Source: Planctomycetaceae bacterium (GTDB taxonomy: Bacteria > Planctomycetota > Planctomycetia > Pirellulales > UBA1268). From it: DNA of 43,527 bases. Shown piece by piece: positions 1 to 38,260 of this stretch. The position numbers and the translations under genes were made by a program. Location: positions 1 through 43,527 of the forward strand of contig JAIXPT010000440.1 of assembly GCA_027486095.1 (NCBI GenBank). The letters are read 5' to 3'. Each line of letters opens with the position of its first letter. Within the stretch, counting starts at the first letter, position 1. Below the pieces are notes generated by a model. It saw nothing but the letters and a program-made list of their open reading frames with translations. It was not told the origin of the DNA and made no database searches.

Positions 1-603
1 CGTGTTTTCGTCGCGGATGATCTCGCCGAGCGACCAGCCCCCGTCGGCCTGCTCGGTCTGCGGGGCGGCCTGGTGCACGTGGATCGCCTTCTTGATGATT
101 GGCAGCTTCTTGCGGGCCAGGCCGAGCATGCGCGCCACTTCTTCCTGCGTCGGCGTGCGGCCGAGCACGTCCACGAGCCGGGCCGTGGCCCGCCGCCACT
201 TCGAGAGCAGTTCGACCATGTAGGCCGGAATGCGGATCGTCTTGCCCGAGTTGATCAGCGCCCGCTTGATCGACTGCTTGATCCAGTAGCTGGCGTAGGT
301 GCTGAAGCGGGTGCCGACCTTCGGGTCGAACCCCTCCACCGCCCGCAGGAGCCCGAGATTGCCCTCCTCGATCAGGTCGGGCAGCGGCAGGCCGCGGTTG
401 GCATAGCCACGGGCGATGTTCACCACGAGCCGCAGATTGGCCCGCACCATGTGGTCGCGGGCGGCGGCATCCCCCTTGGCGATCGCATAGGCGAGCCGCT
501 TCTCGTCGTCGGCATTCAGGAGCGAGGTGTCGTTGATCTCACGGAGGTAGGTCTCGAGCGGGCTCTGGACGGCGGACGAAGGCTTGCGCGGCTTTTCGGG
601 CAT
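1..603 (-). CDS. RNA polymerase sigma-70 factor, RpoD/SigA type (C-terminus beyond window)
   Basis: Reading the minus strand from the ATG at 603 gives 201 uninterrupted codons to the window edge. The ORF track omits it because no stop lies in the window. The protein starts MPEKPRKPSSAVQSPLETYL; PLETYLREIND is the region 1.2 signature. Region 2 follows, with LVVNIARGYANRGLPLPDL (2.1-2.2), a GNLGLLRAVEGFD core-binding segment and FSTYASYWIKQSIKRAL (2.3-2.4). The start of region 3 (TPTQEEVARML) follows, and the rest is outside. There is no long region 1.1, so it resembles short primary-like or group 2 sigma factors. It would bind core RNA polymerase and direct promoter recognition. The two plus-strand ORFs drawn over it (2-223 and 73-654) are shadows. 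Confidence 0.95.
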   Translation of the reverse strand, partial: MPEKPRKPSSAVQSPLETYLREINDTSLLNADDEKRLAYAIAKGDAAARDHMVRANLRLVVNIARGYANRGLPLPDLIEEGNLGLLRAVEGFDPKVGTRFSTYASYWIKQSIKRALINSGKTIRIPAYMVELLSKWRRATARLVDVLGRTPTQEEVARMLGLARKKLPIIKKAIHVHQAAPQTEQADGGWSLGEIIRDENT

Positions 604-771: not shown

Positions 772-798
772 TCGAATCAAGCCTGCTCGAATCAAGCC
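772..798. repeat. Short tandem direct repeat TCGAATCAAGCC
   Basis: The 12-base word TCGAATCAAGCC occurs at 772-783 and again at 787-798, a 15-base period. The second copy contains the stop codon of the metallophosphoesterase gene. It could be simple slippage at the gene's 3' end. No function is evident. Confidence 0.6.
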
Positions 799-1652
799 AG
801 CGCCCACTCGAAGCACACGAGCTCCGGCGCGGCTCCGAGCCGCACCGGAATGAGCGACGTGCCGATGCCGCGCGAGACATACATGGGCGGCCCCGCCTTG
901 CGATACCAGCCGGCGACGTAGCCGCCGCTCCCCGAGGGCAGCGCGAGCGCCACGCCCCAGGGCGCCACCTGCCCGCCGTGCGTGTGGCCGGCGAGCACGA
1001 GATCCACCGGGTGATCGGCCGGCATCGCGACGACGTCGCGCGAGAGCGGGCAGTGCGCAAGCACGAGATGATTCGGGGTCGGCGGGGCGTGGTGGAGCGC
1101 CGCCGCGGCGTCGGGCCTGCCGCTGCGCAGGTCGTCGAGGCCGGTGATCCGCACCCGCGTGCCCGCCGCGGCGAATTCGACCGAGCGGTTCACGAGCAGC
1201 TCGATGCCGTGGCTCTCGTAGAGGCGGTCGAGGGCTTCGCGCGGCACCCCGGCCTCGTATTCCCAGTTGCCGAGGATCGCGAACCGGCGCGGGCCGGCGG
1301 GGCATTCACGCAAAAACGTCTCCAGCTGCCAGAGATCGCGCCGGTGGTCGATCATGTCGCCCGTGAACAGGATCGCGTCGGGCCGGGCGTCATGCAGCCC
1401 CTCGAGCAGGCGTGTCTCGAGGCGGCCGATGCGGTGCAGATGGAGGTCGCTGACCTGCAGCATGCGCAGCCGTGCATCGGGCCGGGAGCCGCGGCTGGCA
1501 AGCGCGTGGGTGGTCGTCTCGAGCCGCTGGGGCGTGATCACGAGCCCGTCCACGGCAGCGGCCGTCGGCAGCCCCACGGCCGCGAGCCCACCGGCGGCGA
1601 GCCAGCGGCGGCGGCTGATGCCCGCGGTCGCGCAGGGCGCCGGATCACTCAT
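792..1652 (-). CDS. Exported metallophosphoesterase (YaeI-like)
   Basis: 286 residues. The calcineurin-like phosphoesterase motifs occur in order: QVSDLHLH (metal-binding D and H), LFTGDMIDH, ILGNWEYE (the usual GNHE with His replaced by Trp), LVLAHCP and LAGHTHGGQ. This is the layout of the YkuE/YaeI subgroup, which acts on phosphodiester or pyrophosphate bonds, often of lipid-linked substrates. The N-terminus has SRRRWLAAGGLAAVG, a twin-arginine-like motif followed by a hydrophobic stretch, so export by Tat is likely. Its ATG overlaps the stop of the upstream hydrolase by four bases (ATGA), indicating translational coupling. The substrate cannot be told from sequence. The Asn-Trp in place of Asn-His in the third motif deserves attention, because that His normally helps protonate the leaving group. 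Confidence 0.88.
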   Translation of the reverse strand: MSDPAPCATAGISRRRWLAAGGLAAVGLPTAAAVDGLVITPQRLETTTHALASRGSRPDARLRMLQVSDLHLHRIGRLETRLLEGLHDARPDAILFTGDMIDHRRDLWQLETFLRECPAGPRRFAILGNWEYEAGVPREALDRLYESHGIELLVNRSVEFAAAGTRVRITGLDDLRSGRPDAAAALHHAPPTPNHLVLAHCPLSRDVVAMPADHPVDLVLAGHTHGGQVAPWGVALALPSGSGGYVAGWYRKAGPPMYVSRGIGTSLIPVRLGAAPELVCFEWALA

Positions 1653-2809
1653 GGCGGGCTCGAGCCGGTAGCCCGCACCCCGGGGCCGAGCGTGCGGTCG
1701 AGAAATTCGACGAGCGCCCGGCCGGCCGGCGTGCCACGGTCGAGCGCGGGACGGTGGGCCGTGCCCGCGAGGATCACAAGCGTGCTATCCACGCCGACGG
1801 CCCGCAGCGCCGCATCGAGGGCGACGCTCTGCGCCGTGGGGATCGTCTCGTCGCGATCGCCGTGCACGACAAGGCAGGGCGGATCATCGGCCGACACATA
1901 CGAGAGCGGGCTCGCCCGTTGGGCGGCTTCGCGAAATTCCGCGAGCGGCCCGCCGACGAGCAGGCTCGCCGGCGACGAGGGCCGGTCGTGCGCAGGCCCG
2001 AGCGACGTGAGGTGGGTGGGCGCCGCCACCGTGCCCACCGCCGCCACCCGCGCGTCGGCCGGGGCCGCGAGCCCCACGAGCGCGGCCAGATGGCCACCGG
2101 CGCCCGCGCCCAGCACGGCGATCCGCTCGGGGTCGATGCCCCACACCTGCGCCGTCCGCCGAATCTCGTCGAGCGCCGCGCGGCAGTCGTCGAGCTGCGC
2201 GGGAAACGTGGCCGAATCGGAGAGGCGATAGCCGATGCTTGCCACGGCATAGCCCTCGTCCGCAAGCCACCGCACGGGGCAGTCGGCCCGGGAGCCGTCC
2301 CGCCAGGTGTCGCCGTGAATCCACACCACGAGCGGCATGCCACCGCCCGAACAGCCCGCCGGCAGGTACATGTCGAACCGCTGGCGGGCGTCGGCCGTGG
2401 GCAGCGAAGGCTGGTCGCGATGCACGAGGAGCGCGGCGCGGGGCGGCCCGTCTGCGGGCCCCCCGAACGGCGATTCGAGTGTCGAATCGACATGGAGCGC
2501 GGCGGATGGCGAGCGCGCCATGAGCCCGTCGGGCACGGCGAGGCCGCTCTCGGGCAGCGCGGCGGGCGCCGCCACACCCACGGGCAGATCGTCGAGCGGC
2601 ATGCGCCGCCGCGCGGCGGCCCGCCGCTGGGCCCGCCGCGAGGGACGCCGGGCAGGGGCCGCCTCCGCCTCGAAGGGCGCGTCGGCCGTGGCCCGCGGAT
2701 CACCCCGCCAGGCGAGTTCTACCGCCGCCCAGTCGCGCTCCATCGCCGCGGCCAACGAGCTGCCGCAGACAAGGGCCGCGGCGAGGAGCACACCGGGAAG
2801 CAGTTTCAT
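1649..2809 (-). CDS. Secreted alpha/beta hydrolase-fold protein lacking the nucleophile Ser
   Basis: 386 residues. A signal peptide (MKLLPGVLLAAALVCGSSLAAA) is followed by about 110 residues of Arg/Ala/Pro-rich low-complexity sequence. An esterase/BD-FAE-like domain then runs from about residue 125: VVWIHGDTWRDGS gives the HG oxyanion region, YAVASIGYRLS is a typical strand, HGDRDETIP carries the acid and GTAHRPA the catalytic His. The nucleophile elbow reads LGAGAGGHLAAL where family members have GxSAGG; the codon is GGC, so Ser has become Gly. The fold and other catalytic residues are kept, so it may be a binding protein or pseudo-enzyme. It starts 26 bases after the YidB-like gene and overlaps the metallophosphoesterase by ATGA, so these form one unit. 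No strong Shine-Dalgarno is visible at the chosen ATG. Confidence 0.85.
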   Translation of the reverse strand: MKLLPGVLLAAALVCGSSLAAAMERDWAAVELAWRGDPRATADAPFEAEAAPARRPSRRAQRRAAARRRMPLDDLPVGVAAPAALPESGLAVPDGLMARSPSAALHVDSTLESPFGGPADGPPRAALLVHRDQPSLPTADARQRFDMYLPAGCSGGGMPLVVWIHGDTWRDGSRADCPVRWLADEGYAVASIGYRLSDSATFPAQLDDCRAALDEIRRTAQVWGIDPERIAVLGAGAGGHLAALVGLAAPADARVAAVGTVAAPTHLTSLGPAHDRPSSPASLLVGGPLAEFREAAQRASPLSYVSADDPPCLVVHGDRDETIPTAQSVALDAALRAVGVDSTLVILAGTAHRPALDRGTPAGRALVEFLDRTLGPGVRATGSSPP

Positions 2810-2835: not shown

Positions 2836-3267
2836 CTAACGACGGGCCTGGAGTTGGCCCGACGGCGTGAGCTCGTCGATGATCTTCGGGATGTAGCGGC
2901 TGAGCACTTCGGCGAGCCGCTCACGGTCGATGTTGCGCTGCCGGGCGATCTGGTCGAGCTCACTGCCGCCGAACACATCCTCGATCTGCCGCCGGCTCAC
3001 CGGCTTGTTGGGGCCGGTGCGCACCCAGGAATCGACCTCGTCGCGCATCCCCTTCTCCTCGAACTGCTTGACGACGTCGGGCAGCTTCTGGGCCTGGCCG
3101 CCCCCGAAGATCTGCTTGAAGATCTCCGCCAGATCATCGGGCGAAGGCATGCCTGACGGGCCGGCCTGCGGGGCGCGGGGCTGCGGCTGCGGGGCGCGCT
3201 GGGGGGCCGGCTGCTGCTGCGCGGCGCCTTCGAGCACCTGCTTCAAGATCTCGCCGAGAATATCCAT
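2836..3267 (-). CDS. YidB-like (DUF937) protein
   Basis: 143 residues from the ATG at 3267 (MDILGEILKQVLEG). The longer 243-residue ORF in the track adds only shadow sequence upstream. After a Gln/Pro/Ala-rich linker (residues 18-45), the conserved part has an amphipathic helix (DDLAEIFKQIFGG), then DSWVRTGPNKPVSRRQIEDV and an end in IPKIIDELTPSGQL. This matches the YidB arrangement, in which a WxxxGxNxPVs motif precedes an alpha-helical bundle and PKxIDxLTPxG. The family has no established biochemical role. It is the first gene of a likely three-gene run with the hydrolase and the metallophosphoesterase. The family call is from recalled consensus. Confidence 0.8.
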   Translation of the reverse strand: MDILGEILKQVLEGAAQQQPAPQRAPQPQPRAPQAGPSGMPSPDDLAEIFKQIFGGGQAQKLPDVVKQFEEKGMRDEVDSWVRTGPNKPVSRRQIEDVFGGSELDQIARQRNIDRERLAEVLSRYIPKIIDELTPSGQLQARR

Positions 3268-3409: not shown

Positions 3410-4792
3410 TCAGCGGTCGAGCTGGGCGCGGAGCGTCGCCCGATCGACACCCAAGAGGCGGGCGGCAGCCGTGCGATTGCCCCCAGCCCGTTCGAGGGCC
3501 TCGTGGGCGAGGGCCGTTTCGACGATCCCGACGAGGCGTTCGTGGAGGTCGCCGGCCGCTGCCGCATTGCTCGGCCAGCGCTCCGCCACCCAGGCTTTCA
3601 CGACACCGGCAACCGATTCATCGGAAGCCGTGTTCGTCGCCGCTGCACCCGCAGCCGGCGCGGGCGGCAGGTGCTCCGGCCGCAGGGCGGCGCCGCGGGC
3701 GACGACGCATGCGTATTCGACGGCGTGCTCCAGTTCGCGGACGTTGCCGGGCCACGGCCGCGCCCGGATGGCGTCGAGAAAGGCGTCGGTGACGTGGGGC
3801 TGCGGCCCGGTGCACCGCGTGAGAAACCAGTCGATGAGGTTCGGCACGTCGTCGAGCCGTGCCGCGAGCGGCGGCATCGAAATCGGAAACACGTTGAGCC
3901 GGTGATAGAGATCTTCGCGGAACTCCCCGGCCGCGATCGCCGCCGCCAGGTCGCGATTGGTGGCCGTAATCACGCGGACATCGACGTGCCGGGATGCCGC
4001 CGAGCCCACCGGCGTGATCTCGCCCTGCTCGAGCACCCGGAGGAGCTTCACCTGCACCTCGGGGGGCGCCTCGCCGATCTCGTCGAGGAAGAGCGTGCCG
4101 CCGCCGGCCAGTTCGAAGAGACCCTGGCGATCGCCCGCGGCGCCGGTGAACGCGCCACGCACGTGGCCGAAGAGTTCGCTCTCGATCACGCTCGGTGAGA
4201 GCGCCGCGAGGCTCGTCGCGAGATATGGCCGATCGCGGCGTGGGCCGTGGGTGTGGATCGCGCGGGCAGCGAGATCCTTGCCGGTGCCGGTGGCGCCGGT
4301 CACGAGCACCGGCAGGTTTGTCGGGGCAACGAGCGCGATCTGCTTGAACACCTGCTGCATCGGGGCCGATCGACCGACCAGCCGCCAGGCGGGGGCGAGG
4401 CCGGCATCGACGATCGTGTCGCGTGCGTGCGGCACGTCGGCCAGTGCCCGGGCGACCACCTCTGCCACCTGCTCGAGATCGAACGGCTTCACGAGATAGT
4501 CGAAGGCACCGGCCTTCGTGGCCCGCACGGCCGTTTCGAGGTCACCAAAGGCCGTCATCACGACGATCCGCGCCGCGGGGGCGAGGGTCTTGAGCTCGGG
4601 GAGCGCCGCGAGGCCGTCGCGGCCCGGTAAACGGACGTCGAGAAGCAGCGCGTCGGGAGCGAACCGGCCGCAGGTGTCGAGGGCGGCCTCGACCGACGCA
4701 GCCACCTCTACATCGTGCCCCTCGTCGCCGAGCACTTCGCGCAGGCTCCAGCCGATGGCCGGCTCGTCGTCGATAATCAGGATGCGACTCAT
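3410..4792 (-). CDS. NtrC-family sigma-54-dependent response regulator
   Basis: 460 residues starting MSRILIIDDEPAIGWSL at 4792; the 599-residue track ORF is extended by shadow sequence. The receiver domain (about 1-120) has the acidic pair in IIDDEP, the phospho-acceptor Asp in LLLDVRLPGRDG, the Thr switch in VVMTAFGD and Lys in YLVKPF. The AAA+ domain (about 145-375) has Walker A GATGTGKD, the sigma-54 loop GAFTGA, Walker B GGTLFLDEIGE and a DVRVITATNRDL sensor. The C-terminus (about 430-460) is a Fis-type helix-turn-helix, GGNRTAAARLLGVDRATL. It should activate sigma-54 promoters when phosphorylated by the adjoining kinase, whose stop codon overlaps this gene's start by ATGA. No sigma-54 type GG-N10-GC promoter was recognised with confidence in the window. 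Confidence 0.95.
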   Translation of the reverse strand: MSRILIIDDEPAIGWSLREVLGDEGHDVEVAASVEAALDTCGRFAPDALLLDVRLPGRDGLAALPELKTLAPAARIVVMTAFGDLETAVRATKAGAFDYLVKPFDLEQVAEVVARALADVPHARDTIVDAGLAPAWRLVGRSAPMQQVFKQIALVAPTNLPVLVTGATGTGKDLAARAIHTHGPRRDRPYLATSLAALSPSVIESELFGHVRGAFTGAAGDRQGLFELAGGGTLFLDEIGEAPPEVQVKLLRVLEQGEITPVGSAASRHVDVRVITATNRDLAAAIAAGEFREDLYHRLNVFPISMPPLAARLDDVPNLIDWFLTRCTGPQPHVTDAFLDAIRARPWPGNVRELEHAVEYACVVARGAALRPEHLPPAPAAGAAATNTASDESVAGVVKAWVAERWPSNAAAAGDLHERLVGIVETALAHEALERAGGNRTAAARLLGVDRATLRAQLDR

Positions 4793-6198
4793 GTCGGCGG
4801 TTGTATCAGGTGCTGCTGCGACGATGCTGCCAGTGTCTCTGCTGGCAGCACGATCGCAAACCGGGTGTGGCGGGGTCCGCGTTCCCAGGAGAGCGCCCCG
4901 CCATGCTCCTCGGCCACGGCCTTCGCGATCGCCAGGCCGAGGCCGATCCCTTCGGGCTTGGTGGTCACGAACGGGTCGCCAAGCACGTCGTGAATGGATG
5001 CCGCCGGCCCAGGCCCCGAGTCTTCCACGGCCAGGGCGGCTTGACCGTGGGCCGCGGTGCCCGTGAGCCGCACCAGCCCGCCCCGGCCAGCCGCCTCGAT
5101 GCCGTTGAGCGCGAGGTTCACGAGTGCCGCCCGCAGGGATTCGGGCCGGCCCTCGAGGGTGATGCCGGTGGGAAGCTCGCATTCGAGCCGCACGCCGGCA
5201 TGCTCGCACCGCGGGGCGGTGAGATCGCGGACCGCCGCCAGCAGGTCATCCACGGCGACTGGGCCACGAGCCGCCTCGGTGGGGCGGCCGAGGGCCAAGA
5301 GGCCGCGCACTTCCTCCTCGACGATCGCCAACTGCCGCGCGGCGATCGCCAGACTGTCGTCTGCGCGCCCCGCTCCCGTGCCGCTACAGCGGCGGGCGTG
5401 GACATCGATCGCCAGCCGGGCCCCGGTGATGGCGTTGCGCAGTTCGTGGGCAAAACCGGCGGCGAGTTGACCGAGCAGTCGCTGCCGCTCGCCGGCGACG
5501 AGCGACGTGCGCAGCTCCTGGAGCGTGGCGCTCATCCGATTGACGCCCGCGGCCAAGCGCGCGACCTCGTCGGCACCGCTGCCGGCGGGCAATTGCTGGC
5601 CGAAGTCACCCGCCGCGATCCGCTCCACATGCCGCTCGACCGCCGTGATGCGCGTCGCCAGCGACCGCGTCATCCAGAGCGAGAGCGGCACGAGCAGGCC
5701 GAGCGTGGCGGCCGCGACGGCGAGCACGGGCCAGACGGTCTCGAGGGCCGCGGCGAGCACGGGTTTCTCAGGGGTCAAGACAAGGACCGTCTCGGGGCGC
5801 ACACCCGTCGCCTGGGCACGGCCGAGGCGATAGCGCACACCACCGAAAGTGATCTGGCCAGCCTCGACGGCGGCGGCCCAGGTGGCGTTGCCCGTGTCGG
5901 CGAGGTGATCGGCCGGGAGGGAGCTCAGTCCGGCTTGCCGGCCCGCCGTATCCCAGACCACGAAGTGACTGCCGGTGAGCGCAAAGAGCGCGTCGAGCAC
6001 CGCGGGCGACAAGGCCACGCGCGTGCTCGCGAGCGCCGTGGCCACGCGGGCCTGCTGTTCGCGTGCCGCCGCCGCGGCCCGGCGGGTGGCCAGCCACGCG
6101 GAGAAGGCCACGTTCAGGAGCACGCCTGCCAGCACGAGGCCCACCACGGGCAGGACCAGCCGGGCGGTGAGCGATTCTCTTCGTGGGCTCCCAAGCAT
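4789..6198 (-). CDS. Membrane sensor histidine kinase, partner of the NtrC-type regulator
   Basis: 469 residues from the ATG at 6198 (MLGSPRRESL). The first membrane helix is at about 13-34 (VLPVVGLVLAGVLLNVAFS). A periplasmic sensing part of about 110 residues follows, then a second membrane helix (WPVLAVAAATLGLLVPLSLW), a HAMP domain with DEVARLAAGVNRM, and the dimerisation/phospho-acceptor helix QLAAGFAHELRNAITG with the phosphorylated His. The ATPase domain has the N box ALVNLALNGIEAAG, G1 VEDSGPGP and G2 GIGLGLAIAKAV. This is NtrB/AtoS-like. It is cotranscribed with the regulator (4-base overlap) and divergent from the ATPase pseudogene 110 bases away. The input signal is unknown; the periplasmic part resembles no domain I can name. 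Confidence 0.93.
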   Translation of the reverse strand: MLGSPRRESLTARLVLPVVGLVLAGVLLNVAFSAWLATRRAAAAAREQQARVATALASTRVALSPAVLDALFALTGSHFVVWDTAGRQAGLSSLPADHLADTGNATWAAAVEAGQITFGGVRYRLGRAQATGVRPETVLVLTPEKPVLAAALETVWPVLAVAAATLGLLVPLSLWMTRSLATRITAVERHVERIAAGDFGQQLPAGSGADEVARLAAGVNRMSATLQELRTSLVAGERQRLLGQLAAGFAHELRNAITGARLAIDVHARRCSGTGAGRADDSLAIAARQLAIVEEEVRGLLALGRPTEAARGPVAVDDLLAAVRDLTAPRCEHAGVRLECELPTGITLEGRPESLRAALVNLALNGIEAAGRGGLVRLTGTAAHGQAALAVEDSGPGPAASIHDVLGDPFVTTKPEGIGLGLAIAKAVAEEHGGALSWERGPRHTRFAIVLPAETLAASSQQHLIQPPT

Positions 6199-6307
6199 GC
6201 CCCAAGTGTCGCCGGAACGAGGGCCGGGTTCCACTCGCGGCGTGGCACTGGCCCGCCGTGGAGCGATAAGGTGTGTGGCCTTCGCGCTTTCAAGGCCGGG
6301 CGTTTCC

Positions 6308-8588
6308 ATGCCGTTCCCCGCCACGCTGCCGTTTTCAGCGACCGCCCATCGGGCCGTGAACGCCCAAGCCGATGCGCTGGTCATCGACGCCGCGGGGGCC
6401 GATGCGGCTGTGGCCTGCGCGCGGCTGGCGACCACGCCAGAGGGCCTCACCGCCGCGGAGGCTCGGCAGCGGCTCGATCGGCACGGGCCCAACACGATTG
6501 CCCAGTCGGCAGGGGAGGAGCCGCTCGCGCTCCTCTGCAAGGCGGCCCTCAATCCGCTCGTGCTGCTTCTCGCGATCCTCGGCGGCTCGTCGTTGGCCAC
6601 GGGCGACGCCGTCTCGGCTGCGATCATGGCGGTGATGCTTGCCCTCGGCGTGGGGCTGCGGTTCCTGCAAGAGTGGCGGGCGCACGCTCTTGGGCGGCAT
6701 GTCACGGTCGCTCGAGGCCCCCGAGCCGCCCACGGCGTTCGATGTCGGGCTCGAAAGGTTCACGTGGCTGATGGTGGGCGTCGTGGCGGTGATGGTGCCG
6801 CTCGTGTTCCTGATCAACGGCCTTACCAAGGGGAACTGGGGCGATGCGTTTTTGTTCGCGCTGGCCGTGGGCGTGGGGATCACGCCGGAGATGCTGCCGA
6901 TGATCGTGACGGTGTGTCTCTCGCGGGGGGCCCTCATGCTCGCCCACGAGCGCGTGATCGTGAAGCATCTCGACGCGATCCAGAACCTCGGCGGCATGGA
7001 CGTGCTTTGCACCGACAAGACAGGCACGCTCACGCTCGACCGCATCATCCTCGAGCGCCACTGCGACGTGCTGTTGCGCGACGATCCCGAGGTGCTGCGC
7101 TACGCCTGGCTCAACAGCCACTTTCAGACCGGCCTGAAAAACCTGCTCGACCGGGCGATCCTCGACCATGAGGAGCTGCGCGAACACGTGGCGAAGGCGG
7201 GCTGGGAGAAGGTGGATGAGATTCCCTTCGACTTCTCCCGCCGGGTGATGTCGGTCGTCGTTTCGGCGCCCGGTGGCACGCGGCTGCTCGTCTGCAAGGG
7301 GGCGCCCGAGGCGGTCTACGCCCGGTGCTCGGGGTTCGCGCTCGACGGGCGGGTGGAGCCATTGGGGCATGGGGCGCTCGAGCGGCTCGAGCGGGAGTTC
7401 GAGCGGCTCTCCGCCGACGGCTTCCGCGTGCTCGCGATCGCCTGCCGCGACGTCGAGGCGCAGCCCGCCTACGGCCGCGACGACGAGCATGATCTCGTGC
7501 TCCGCGGCTACGTGGCGTTTCTCGACCCGCCCAAGGATTCGGCGGCCGCGGCTCTGGCGGCGCTTCGTGCCGGCGGCATCGCCGTGAAGGTGCTCACCGG
7601 AGACAACGAACTCGTCAGCCGGAAGGTGTGCGGCGCCGTGGGGATCGATGCCGGCGCCGTGCTCCTTGGCCGCGAGGTGGACATGCTCGACGACCAGGCG
7701 CTCGCGGCCGCAGCCTCGCGGGCCACGCTCCTGGCCCGGCTCTCGCCCCAGCAGAAGGAGCGGGTCGTGCATGCGCTCAGGCGGGCTGGCCACGTGGTCG
7801 GGTTCCTCGGAGATGGCATCAACGACGCGCCGGCCTTGCGGGCCGCCGACGTCGGGATCTCGGTCGATTCGGCGGTGGACATCGCCCGGGCGAGCGCCGA
7901 CTGCGTGCTTCTCGAGAAAGACCTCGAGGTGCTCGAGGCGGGCGTGCGGGTGGGCCGGAAGGTGTTCGTGAACATCCTCAAGTATGTCCGCATGGGGGCG
8001 AGCTCGAACTTCGGCAACATGCTGAGCGTGTTGGGGGCGAGCGTATTCCTGCCGTTCGTGCCGATGACGCCGCTCCAGATCCTGACGAACAACCTGCTCT
8101 ACGACTGCTCGCAGGTGCCGATCCCGACCGACGACGTCGATCCGGAACTCGTGGCCCGGCCGCGGCCCTGGTCAGTCGGGCAGATCTCGCGGTTCATCCT
8201 GCTCGTGGGGCCAGTGAGCTCGCTCTTCGACTTCACGACGTTCGCCGCGCTCTGGTTTCTCTTCGGCTGCGCCGATCCTGAGCGGACGGCGGTCTTTCAC
8301 ACCGGCTGGTTCGTGGAATCGCTCGTCACGCAGACATTCATCATCCACGTGATCCGCACCGATCGCATGCCGTTTATCCAGAGCCGGGCGAGCACGGCGC
8401 TCGTGGCGACGACGGCGGCCGTGATCGCCGCGGGCATCTGGCTCGCCGACTCGCCGCTCGGCCGGAAGTTTGGCTTCGTGCCGCTGCCCTGGTCCTACTG
8501 GCCGTTTCTACTCGCGACCGTCGTGGCCTACGCCACCGCGACTCACCTCGTGAAATCGTGGCTCGTGCGGCGGGGCTGGATCGACTGA
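6308..8588 (+). pseudogene. mgtA: MgtA-type P-type ATPase, actuator domain deleted and frame shifted
   Basis: Two overlapping frames make up one broken gene. The first (ATG 6308) encodes the N-terminal part and membrane helices 1-2, ending with recognisable LGVGLRFLQEWRA near 6680. The second frame picks up at RTLLGGMSRSL and TAFDVGLERFTWLM (helix 3), then GVGITPEMLPMIVT, the phosphorylation loop CTDKTGTLT, HLDAIQNLGGMD, VLTGDNE, GDGINDAPAL and the C-terminal helices to 8588. In intact Mg2+-importing ATPases these two pieces are separated by the whole actuator domain with its TGES loop, roughly 150 residues. That domain is absent and the join is out of frame, so no functional pump can be made. 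The rest is well preserved, suggesting a recent deletion or an assembly error. The Mg2+ substrate is inferred from the helix 4 and TWLNSH-type motifs. Confidence 0.85.
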
Positions 8589-37447: not shown

Positions 37448-38260
37448 ATGGTCGGATGGCGTCACACCGTAGTGCTCGCGGCACTTTCACTCGTGGGGGC
37501 GACGGCCGTCGGGGTCGAGCACCGCACGCTCACCGACATTCCCTACCGGGCGTCCGCCGACGGCTCCGACCGGGGGCCGGAGCGGTGCCGCCTCGACCTC
37601 CACCTGCCCGTCGATGCGAGCGGCTTTGCGACCGTGGTGTGGTTTCACGGCGGTGGGCTCACGAAGGGCAAGCGTGAGATTCCAAAATCGCTCCGCGGCC
37701 GGGGCTTCGCGGTGGTGGGCGCGGGCTATCGCCTGAGCCCGGGCGTCAAAGCACCCGTGTATATCGAGGATGCCGCCGCGGCGGTGGCTTGGACGTTTCG
37801 TTCGATCGCCGAGCATGGGGGAAGCCCGCGCCGCATCTACGTGAGCGGTCATTCCGCCGGTGCCTACCTGGCCGCGATGGTGGGGCTCGACACGAAGTGG
37901 TTGGCCGCCCATGGCATCGAAGCCAACGATCTGGCCGGAATCATCCCCTGCAGTGCGCAGTGCATCACGCACTTCACGGTGCGGGCCGAGCGCGGGATTC
38001 CCGACCGCCAGCCGGTGATCGATGAATTCGCCCCGCTCTTTCACGTGCGGCGGGATGCGCCGCCGCTGCTCTTGATCACCGGGGACCGCGACCGCGAAAT
38101 GCTCGGCCGCTATGAGGAAAACGCCTACCTGTGGCGCATGATGAAGCTCGCCGGGCACGAGCGCACTCGCCTGGTAGAACTCAACGGCGAGGATCACGGC
38201 AGCATGGCGGAAGCGGCCTTGCCGCTCGTCATCGATGCGGTGACAAACGCTCGGGAGTGA
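37448..38260 (+). CDS. Secreted alpha/beta hydrolase (esterase-like)
   Basis: 270 residues from the ATG at 37448, with AGGAG ten bases upstream; the track start is a GTG at 37412. A signal peptide (TVVLAALSLVGATAVG) is followed by an esterase/BD-FAE-type fold: VVWFHGGGLTKGKRE (oxyanion HGGG), VVGAGYRLSPG, nucleophile elbow VSGHSAGAYLAAMVG with Ser intact, acid in LITGDRDREM and His in GEDHGSMAE. Expected to hydrolyse esters such as acetylated polysaccharides or xenobiotic esters; the substrate is not determined by sequence. It is divergent from the giant repeat protein and convergent with madM (28-base gap). It contrasts with the hydrolase at 1649-2809, which lacks the Ser. Confidence 0.87.
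   Translation: MVGWRHTVVLAALSLVGATAVGVEHRTLTDIPYRASADGSDRGPERCRLDLHLPVDASGFATVVWFHGGGLTKGKREIPKSLRGRGFAVVGAGYRLSPGVKAPVYIEDAAAAVAWTFRSIAEHGGSPRRIYVSGHSAGAYLAAMVGLDTKWLAAHGIEANDLAGIIPCSAQCITHFTVRAERGIPDRQPVIDEFAPLFHVRRDAPPLLLITGDRDREMLGRYEENAYLWRMMKLAGHERTRLVELNGEDHGSMAEAALPLVIDAVTNARE

Follow-up and report, generated by a model that had tools for sequence, protein, structure and literature searches.

A BD-FAE-type esterase gene that lost its nucleophile serine once and has been kept by purifying selection in one planctomycete family

We found that a gene for an esterase-like protein, located in a 43,527-nt stretch of planctomycete DNA (the window), belongs to a clade in which the nucleophile serine was lost once, in the common ancestor, after the split from the Ser-bearing lineage. 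The residue was never regained, and the Ser-less gene has been maintained by purifying selection. With a probability of about 0.6, the product is a selected exported pseudo-esterase that was kept, after the loss of Ser, as a non-hydrolytic ligand-binding protein. Esterase activity is very probably absent from the Ser-less protein. A bacterial BD-FAE clade without Ser was not described in any of the open-access literature searched.

The window protein and its active site

The protein matches the Pfam family BD-FAE (PF20434) over residues 146–335 with an E-value of 1.7e-46 and a score of 158.9 bits (curated cut-off 26.8); it also matches Abhydrolase_3 and Peptidase_S9. The Ser-Asp-His triad with a GxSxG elbow that characterizes PF20434 is incomplete: the Ser is missing, while the Asp and the His are there. 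The sequence-only reading had proposed just such a replacement of Ser by Gly in a site that otherwise kept its oxyanion HG, Asp and His, and we located each of these residues: Gly236, encoded by GGC, in the elbow GAGAGG, as well as His165-Gly166, Asp320 and His352 (Table 1). The esterase at 37448–38260, which that reading had offered as a contrast, does keep the Ser (GHSAGA).

The hydrophobic leader of the protein is MKLLPGVLLAAALVCGSSLAAA. The export leaders of the pseudo-esterase and of the adjoining metallophosphoesterase (MPE) were judged by eye, and start codons were picked by script.

The predicted structure has pLDDT > 90 over most of the hydrolase domain. The best structural match to the model in the PDB was Lip_vut4 (6nkf, E-value 2.9e-22), an esterase from a rumen metagenome, followed by BD-FAE (6tkx, 6xyc); by sequence, the best solved relatives were Lip_vut4, the GH43-CE protein 6mly and BD-FAE (6xyc, 6tkx). 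Lip_vut4, the best match in both respects (28% identity), keeps Ser in GDSSGG, and the aligned part begins after the Arg arm of the window protein. BD-FAE, a bifunctional feruloyl and acetyl xylan esterase, shares with the window protein the Pfam family, the fold and the cap motif; unlike BD-FAE, the window protein has no Ser nucleophile, reads HGD, and carries an extra Arg-rich N-terminal arm and clade-specific cysteines.

Table 1. Positions of the genes and residues discussed in the text (coordinates of the window)
Feature	Position	Strand	Remark
Sigma-70 factor	1..603	-	Cut by window end; conserved downstream neighbour
MPE, YaeI/LpxG-like	792..1652	-	Twin-arginine-type N-terminus; GNWE motif
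Trp130 of GNWE	1263..1265	-	Position of proton-donor His in GNHD/E
ATGA overlap	1649..1652	-	Hydrolase stop (TGA) / MPE start (ATG)
Pseudo-esterase, BD-FAE-type alpha/beta hydrolase fold	1649..2809	-	386 aa; signal-like N-terminus
His352	1754..1756	-	Formerly catalytic His, kept
Asp320	1850..1852	-	Formerly catalytic Asp, kept
Nucleophile elbow GAGAGG	2093..2110	-	Residues 234-239 (G234-A-G-A-G-G239)
Gly236, nucleophile position	2102-2104	-	Codon GGC
Cys177	2279..2281	-	Invariant in Ser-less clade
His165, oxyanion motif	2315..2317	-	HGD (H165-G166-D167) versus canonical HGG
Cys153	2351..2353	-	Fixed in Ser-less clade
Arg-rich tract RRPSRRAQRRAAARR	2606..2650	-	Residues 54-68; conserved; specific to Ser-less clade and sister
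DPR motif	2693..2701	-	Residues 37-39; conserved; ahead of Arg tract
YidB-like protein	2836..3267	-	Just upstream; conserved neighbour in many genomes

Distribution of the serine loss

We searched 72 genomes from the same family as the window's genome; nearly all of the genomes used are metagenome bins. The orthologue lacks Ser in each of the 43 family genomes carrying the derived gene (43/43) and has Gly or Ala instead, in the elbow variants GxGAGG, GxGGGG, GxAAGG, GxAGGG, GxAAGA and GxGTGG; the hydrolase of genome G012, read directly, has GHGGGG. In genome G006 (genus g2), on the other hand, a sister gene with the same MPE adjoining it retains GSSAGG together with the Asp and the His, and GxSAGG or GxSAGx is kept in all same-family paralogues and all order-level and class-level homologues that we read. 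A loss shared by 43 orthologous genomes, against Ser in all paralogues and outgroups read, is beyond chance. A second Ser-less paralogue in the same genomes was considered and rejected, as every other paralogue read has Ser.

It had been suggested that a Gly fixed across species would mark a selected pseudo-enzyme. The check came out positive, with no Ser in any orthologue of the derived clade and with purifying selection on the gene, except that the residue is Gly or Ala, so that what is fixed is 'not Ser'. In the same way, the reported conservation of Asp and His holds for a part of the clade, window protein included, and has decayed in the rest.

Phylogeny and selection

A maximum-likelihood tree of 55 proteins was built after the triad, elbow and oxyanion positions had been taken out of the alignment. 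The Ser-less proteins formed one clade (support 100/99) with G006 as its sister (100/100), and a quick tree gave the same single clade. The state of the Ser position changed once on the tree, as it did on each of the 200 bootstrap trees. Since Ser is present throughout the outgroup, loss is the more parsimonious direction.

For 14 pairs of Ser-less orthologues, including pairs in which the whole triad was lost, we obtained dN/dS of about 0.06–0.31, varying with pair and method; for the Ser paralogues it was about 0.12–0.21, where estimable. Several dS values were near saturation, therefore it is the closer pairs (0.08–0.31) that bear the argument for selection. In genus g3, where the oxyanion His and the catalytic His are lost as well, dN/dS was 0.15–0.22.

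One could suspect a decaying pseudogene, a sequencing error or a strain-specific mutation, given that the window's genome is a MAG assembly, 77% complete, and that the gene is absent in some relatives. However, the loss is common to independent assemblies of many genomes, the reading frames are open over their full length, and dN/dS is far under 1. Presence of the loss across the family genomes rules out a strain mutation or sequencing error, and the dN/dS values rule out a decaying pseudogene; we give explanations of this kind a negligible chance.

The gene was lost in several lineages, even within the window's own genus (G004), and for this reason the pseudo-esterase is not essential.

What remains constrained and what decays

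Parsimony counts of changes per alignment column were made on the tree for the Ser group and for two classes of Ser-less proteins: class I (genera g1, g5, g8 and g9; 19 sequences, the window's among them) and class II (g3, g4 and g10; 21 sequences). The triad positions had zero changes in the Ser group. Asp320 and His352 had zero changes also across the 19 sequences of class I, where 38% of columns were equally unchanged. In class II the triad decayed further: His352 changed 10 times, which ranks it above nearly every other column in variability; Asp320 changed six times and the oxyanion His five times. The residue preceding the nucleophile position, with 11 changes, was also among the most variable columns.

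A different set of positions has been retained. Gly234, Gly238, Tyr194, His316, Cys153 and Cys177 had zero changes in both classes; after export the two cysteines may be joined by a disulfide. Specific to the clade and its sister are, among others, Asp37 and Arg39, positions 54, 59, 62, 63, 67 and 68 of the Arg tract, and further Cys153, Trp181, Trp223 and Arg293; position 55 of the Arg tract is specific to the Ser-less clade only. The cap motif of the BD-FAE family, LVGGPLPEFREAAQRASP, is among the most conserved stretches. As far as the alignments tell, the catalytic constraint is gone, and the constraint on the fold, the cap and the N-terminal arm persists.

Could class I proteins, including the window's, be enzymes of a non-canonical kind, in which the oxyanion pocket, together with the Asp-His pair, directly activates water or carries out a lyase- or transferase-type reaction? 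Asp320 and His352 are indeed unchanged in 19/19 class I sequences, and pseudoenzymes with migrated or new chemistry are on record (PMC10211241). Still, because so large a share of class I columns is just as unchanged, the invariance of these two residues is weak evidence for retained chemistry. Moreover, the oxyanion HGG is replaced by HGD, HGN or HGT, class II remains under selection having lost His, Asp and the oxyanion His, and the elbow offers no conserved Ser, Cys or Thr as a substitute. We regard this explanation as quite improbable.

Position 235 was rejected as a substitute nucleophile: it is Ser in 12/41 sequences, and the remaining ones have His, Gln, Ala, Arg, Lys or other residues (Ala in the window protein). 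The conserved serines 191, 279, 282, 300 and 306, all outside the elbow, were not taken for nucleophiles; Ser279 and Ser282 are part of a cap motif also found in the active relative 6nkf.

Proposed function

A binding role seems to us the better account of the pattern of conservation. We judge the pseudo-esterase to be a secreted binder because enzymes of the ancestral group use an exposed furrow to attack acylated polysaccharides, and because the fold and the cap have been kept while the catalytic groups drift. In BD-FAE the triad is Ser-Asp-His and the oxyanion hole is made by a Gly and the Ser; the active site lies exposed in a shallow furrow, and there may be a cleft that binds xylan (PMC8165983).

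The starting point was a serine esterase of the BD-FAE type, encoded at one fixed site in the chromosome of a single planctomycete family. Its nucleophile Ser was lost once and the gene was then retained by purifying selection. In our proposal the intact alpha/beta fold, with its exposed former active-site furrow and its cap, would bind a ligand without cleaving it. The ligand would most probably be a glycan, acylated or acidic, belonging to the envelope or the surroundings, and the Arg-rich N-terminal arm might add contact with an anionic surface. A glycan is our leading guess for the ligand, and a tentative one.

Comparable proteins are on record. The C-terminal pseudo-esterase of PgaB is a relative of bacterial carbohydrate esterases that lost catalysis and binds glycan (PMC7828330); unlike the window protein, it belongs to an unrelated family (it is CE4-like) and is fused to an active domain. 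In a CE2 esterase an inactivating mutation increased the affinity for glycan (PMC7828330). Pseudoenzymes as a class are known, and animals have proteins of the alpha/beta hydrolase fold that lack a working triad: neuroligins, neurotactin and the C-terminal domain of thyroglobulin, which serve in adhesion or folding (PMC5943944) and which, in distinction to the window protein, belong to the cholinesterase-like group and not to the BD-FAE family.

Alternatively, the product could be a structural or envelope protein with no specific ligand in the furrow, with the Arg arm acting, for example, in surface tethering or oligomerization. Few conserved features are as clade-specific as the DPR motif and the Arg tract, and BD-FAE crystals pack into oligomers via the N-terminal tail (PMC8165983). 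The high conservation of the cap motif, however, suggests that a binding site was retained, and we find this alternative improbable.

A more sweeping picture, which we find rather doubtful, is that of a lineage-wide switch from a secreted polysaccharide-type esterase to an envelope protein that acts like a lectin or has a different catalysis, with Ser-Asp-His, Asp-His-only and triad-less stages surviving in sister genera and with an adjoining phosphoesterase clade that has a lineage-specific Trp for the proton donor.

The label 'alpha/beta hydrolase' or 'esterase' that databases would assign is probably wrong for the whole clade. We observed a clean series, from the intact triad to loss of the nucleophile to loss of the triad, at one chromosomal site and with a close sister that looks active. 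The gene is dispensable in a part of the family, and the evolutionary series is unusually clear; it allows one to ask what an esterase fold is kept for after cutting ends.

The partner metallophosphoesterase

Trp130 of the MPE does give GNWE instead of GNHE, as had been noticed in the window. All metal-ligand motifs of calcineurin-like MPEs (DxH, GD, GN, H and GHxH) are present, and the ligands themselves (D69-H71, G98-D99, G128-N129, H200 and G222-H223-T224-H225) are invariant in 32 family sequences. So is Trp130 in the same 32 MPEs, while order- and class-level homologues have GNHD; among the genomes searched GNWE seems confined to the family. We found no description of a GNWE metallophosphoesterase in the open-access literature searched.

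Of the two proteins with altered active sites, the MPE is unlikely to be a second dead enzyme: its metal ligands are invariant, and every MPE of the family has the Trp. G006 has GNWE beside a hydrolase that retains Ser, and genomes lacking the hydrolase have it too; therefore the Trp change is older than the loss of Ser and independent of it. With all its metal ligands in place, the MPE probably still works as an enzyme, with altered chemistry. In LpxH the His of GNHD/E is changed to Arg in every species; LpxH is nonetheless active, and its Arg binds the substrate phosphate (PMC5016852); therefore losing this His need not abolish activity. LpxH and the MPE are alike in the family-wide replacement of the proton-donor His, but the MPE has Trp rather than Arg and an export-type leader, and LpxI covers the lipid A step.

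The MPE matched the NCBIfam profiles YaeI and LpxG with 100.7 bits (cut-off 188) and 82.6 bits (cut-off 350), respectively, both scores being under the curated cut-offs; it differs from these proteins also in GNWE and in its place in a family-specific clade. LpxC and LpxI were both present in 8/8 genomes checked. We rejected the MPE as a substitute for LpxG or LpxH in view of the LpxG score under the equivalog cut-off, the twin-arginine-type leader and the presence of LpxC and LpxI; a role in lipid A synthesis is unlikely. No PDB relatives of the MPE were found by sequence, and a fold search returned Mre11, purple acid phosphatase and 5'-nucleotidase types with low TM-score, which is uninformative on substrate.

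Gene neighbourhood and co-occurrence

The ATGA overlap of the two genes, claimed previously, was located in the window (Table 1). Much of the family shares one gene order, interrupted in places: histidine kinase, NtrC-type regulator, DUF1559 pilin-like protein, YidB-like protein, pseudo-esterase, MPE, sigma-70 factor, phosphoribosyltransferase, MnmA-type tRNA enzyme and FloA.

Such an arrangement could mean that the pseudo-esterase is a regulatory or chaperone-like partner of the MPE, forming a complex in which it presents substrate to the MPE or tunes it. The genes overlap in the window and adjoin in most genomes having both, both proteins have export-type leaders, and both active sites are altered. 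The distribution of the genes argues against it. Among the 34 family genomes at least 90% complete, both genes occur in 15 (G006 included), the pseudo-esterase only in six, the MPE only in seven and neither in six, with the caveat that the single gene of G044 is at a contig end. In genus g4 the pseudo-esterase gene leads directly into the sigma-factor gene and the MPE is gone; g6, g7 and G004, of the window's genus, have the MPE without the pseudo-esterase; in G014 and G015 the two genes are on different contigs. The pseudo-esterase and the MPE are often together and are not interdependent. The idea of a coupled two-enzyme system fares poorly, each gene being often kept without the other, and an obligate two-part system is unsupported. 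That the pseudo-esterase belongs to a functional unit with the MPE is unlikely, and the specific case of an MPE partner is more unlikely still.

Individual loci illustrate the rearrangements. In L135 (G004:C162), at 4039–5158, the pseudo-esterase gene is cleanly lost between the YidB-like gene, whose match ends at 4461, and the MPE gene. Both genes are present on separate contigs in G014 (L155, L154) and G015 (L055, L099); in G014 the pseudo-esterase retains the ancestral neighbours and the MPE is elsewhere. In L148 (G003), at 5034–6635 on the minus strand, the pseudo-esterase frame is longer than usual (534 aa as called) and overlaps the MPE gene, which is read from the same strand but in a different frame; this may reflect a late frameshift or an error of assembly.

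The matches flagged for an internal stop mostly reach the query end, and the stop was taken as the natural one and not as recoding. We also observed a split P-type cation ATPase gene at 6309–8588 (plus strand): the Cation_ATPase_N part ends near 6710, and the rest is in another frame from ∼6700, where the match to the actuator domain is limited to its last half (positions 87–180 of the E1-E2_ATPase profile). A frameshift combined with an internal deletion, or else an error of assembly, would seem to account for the split.
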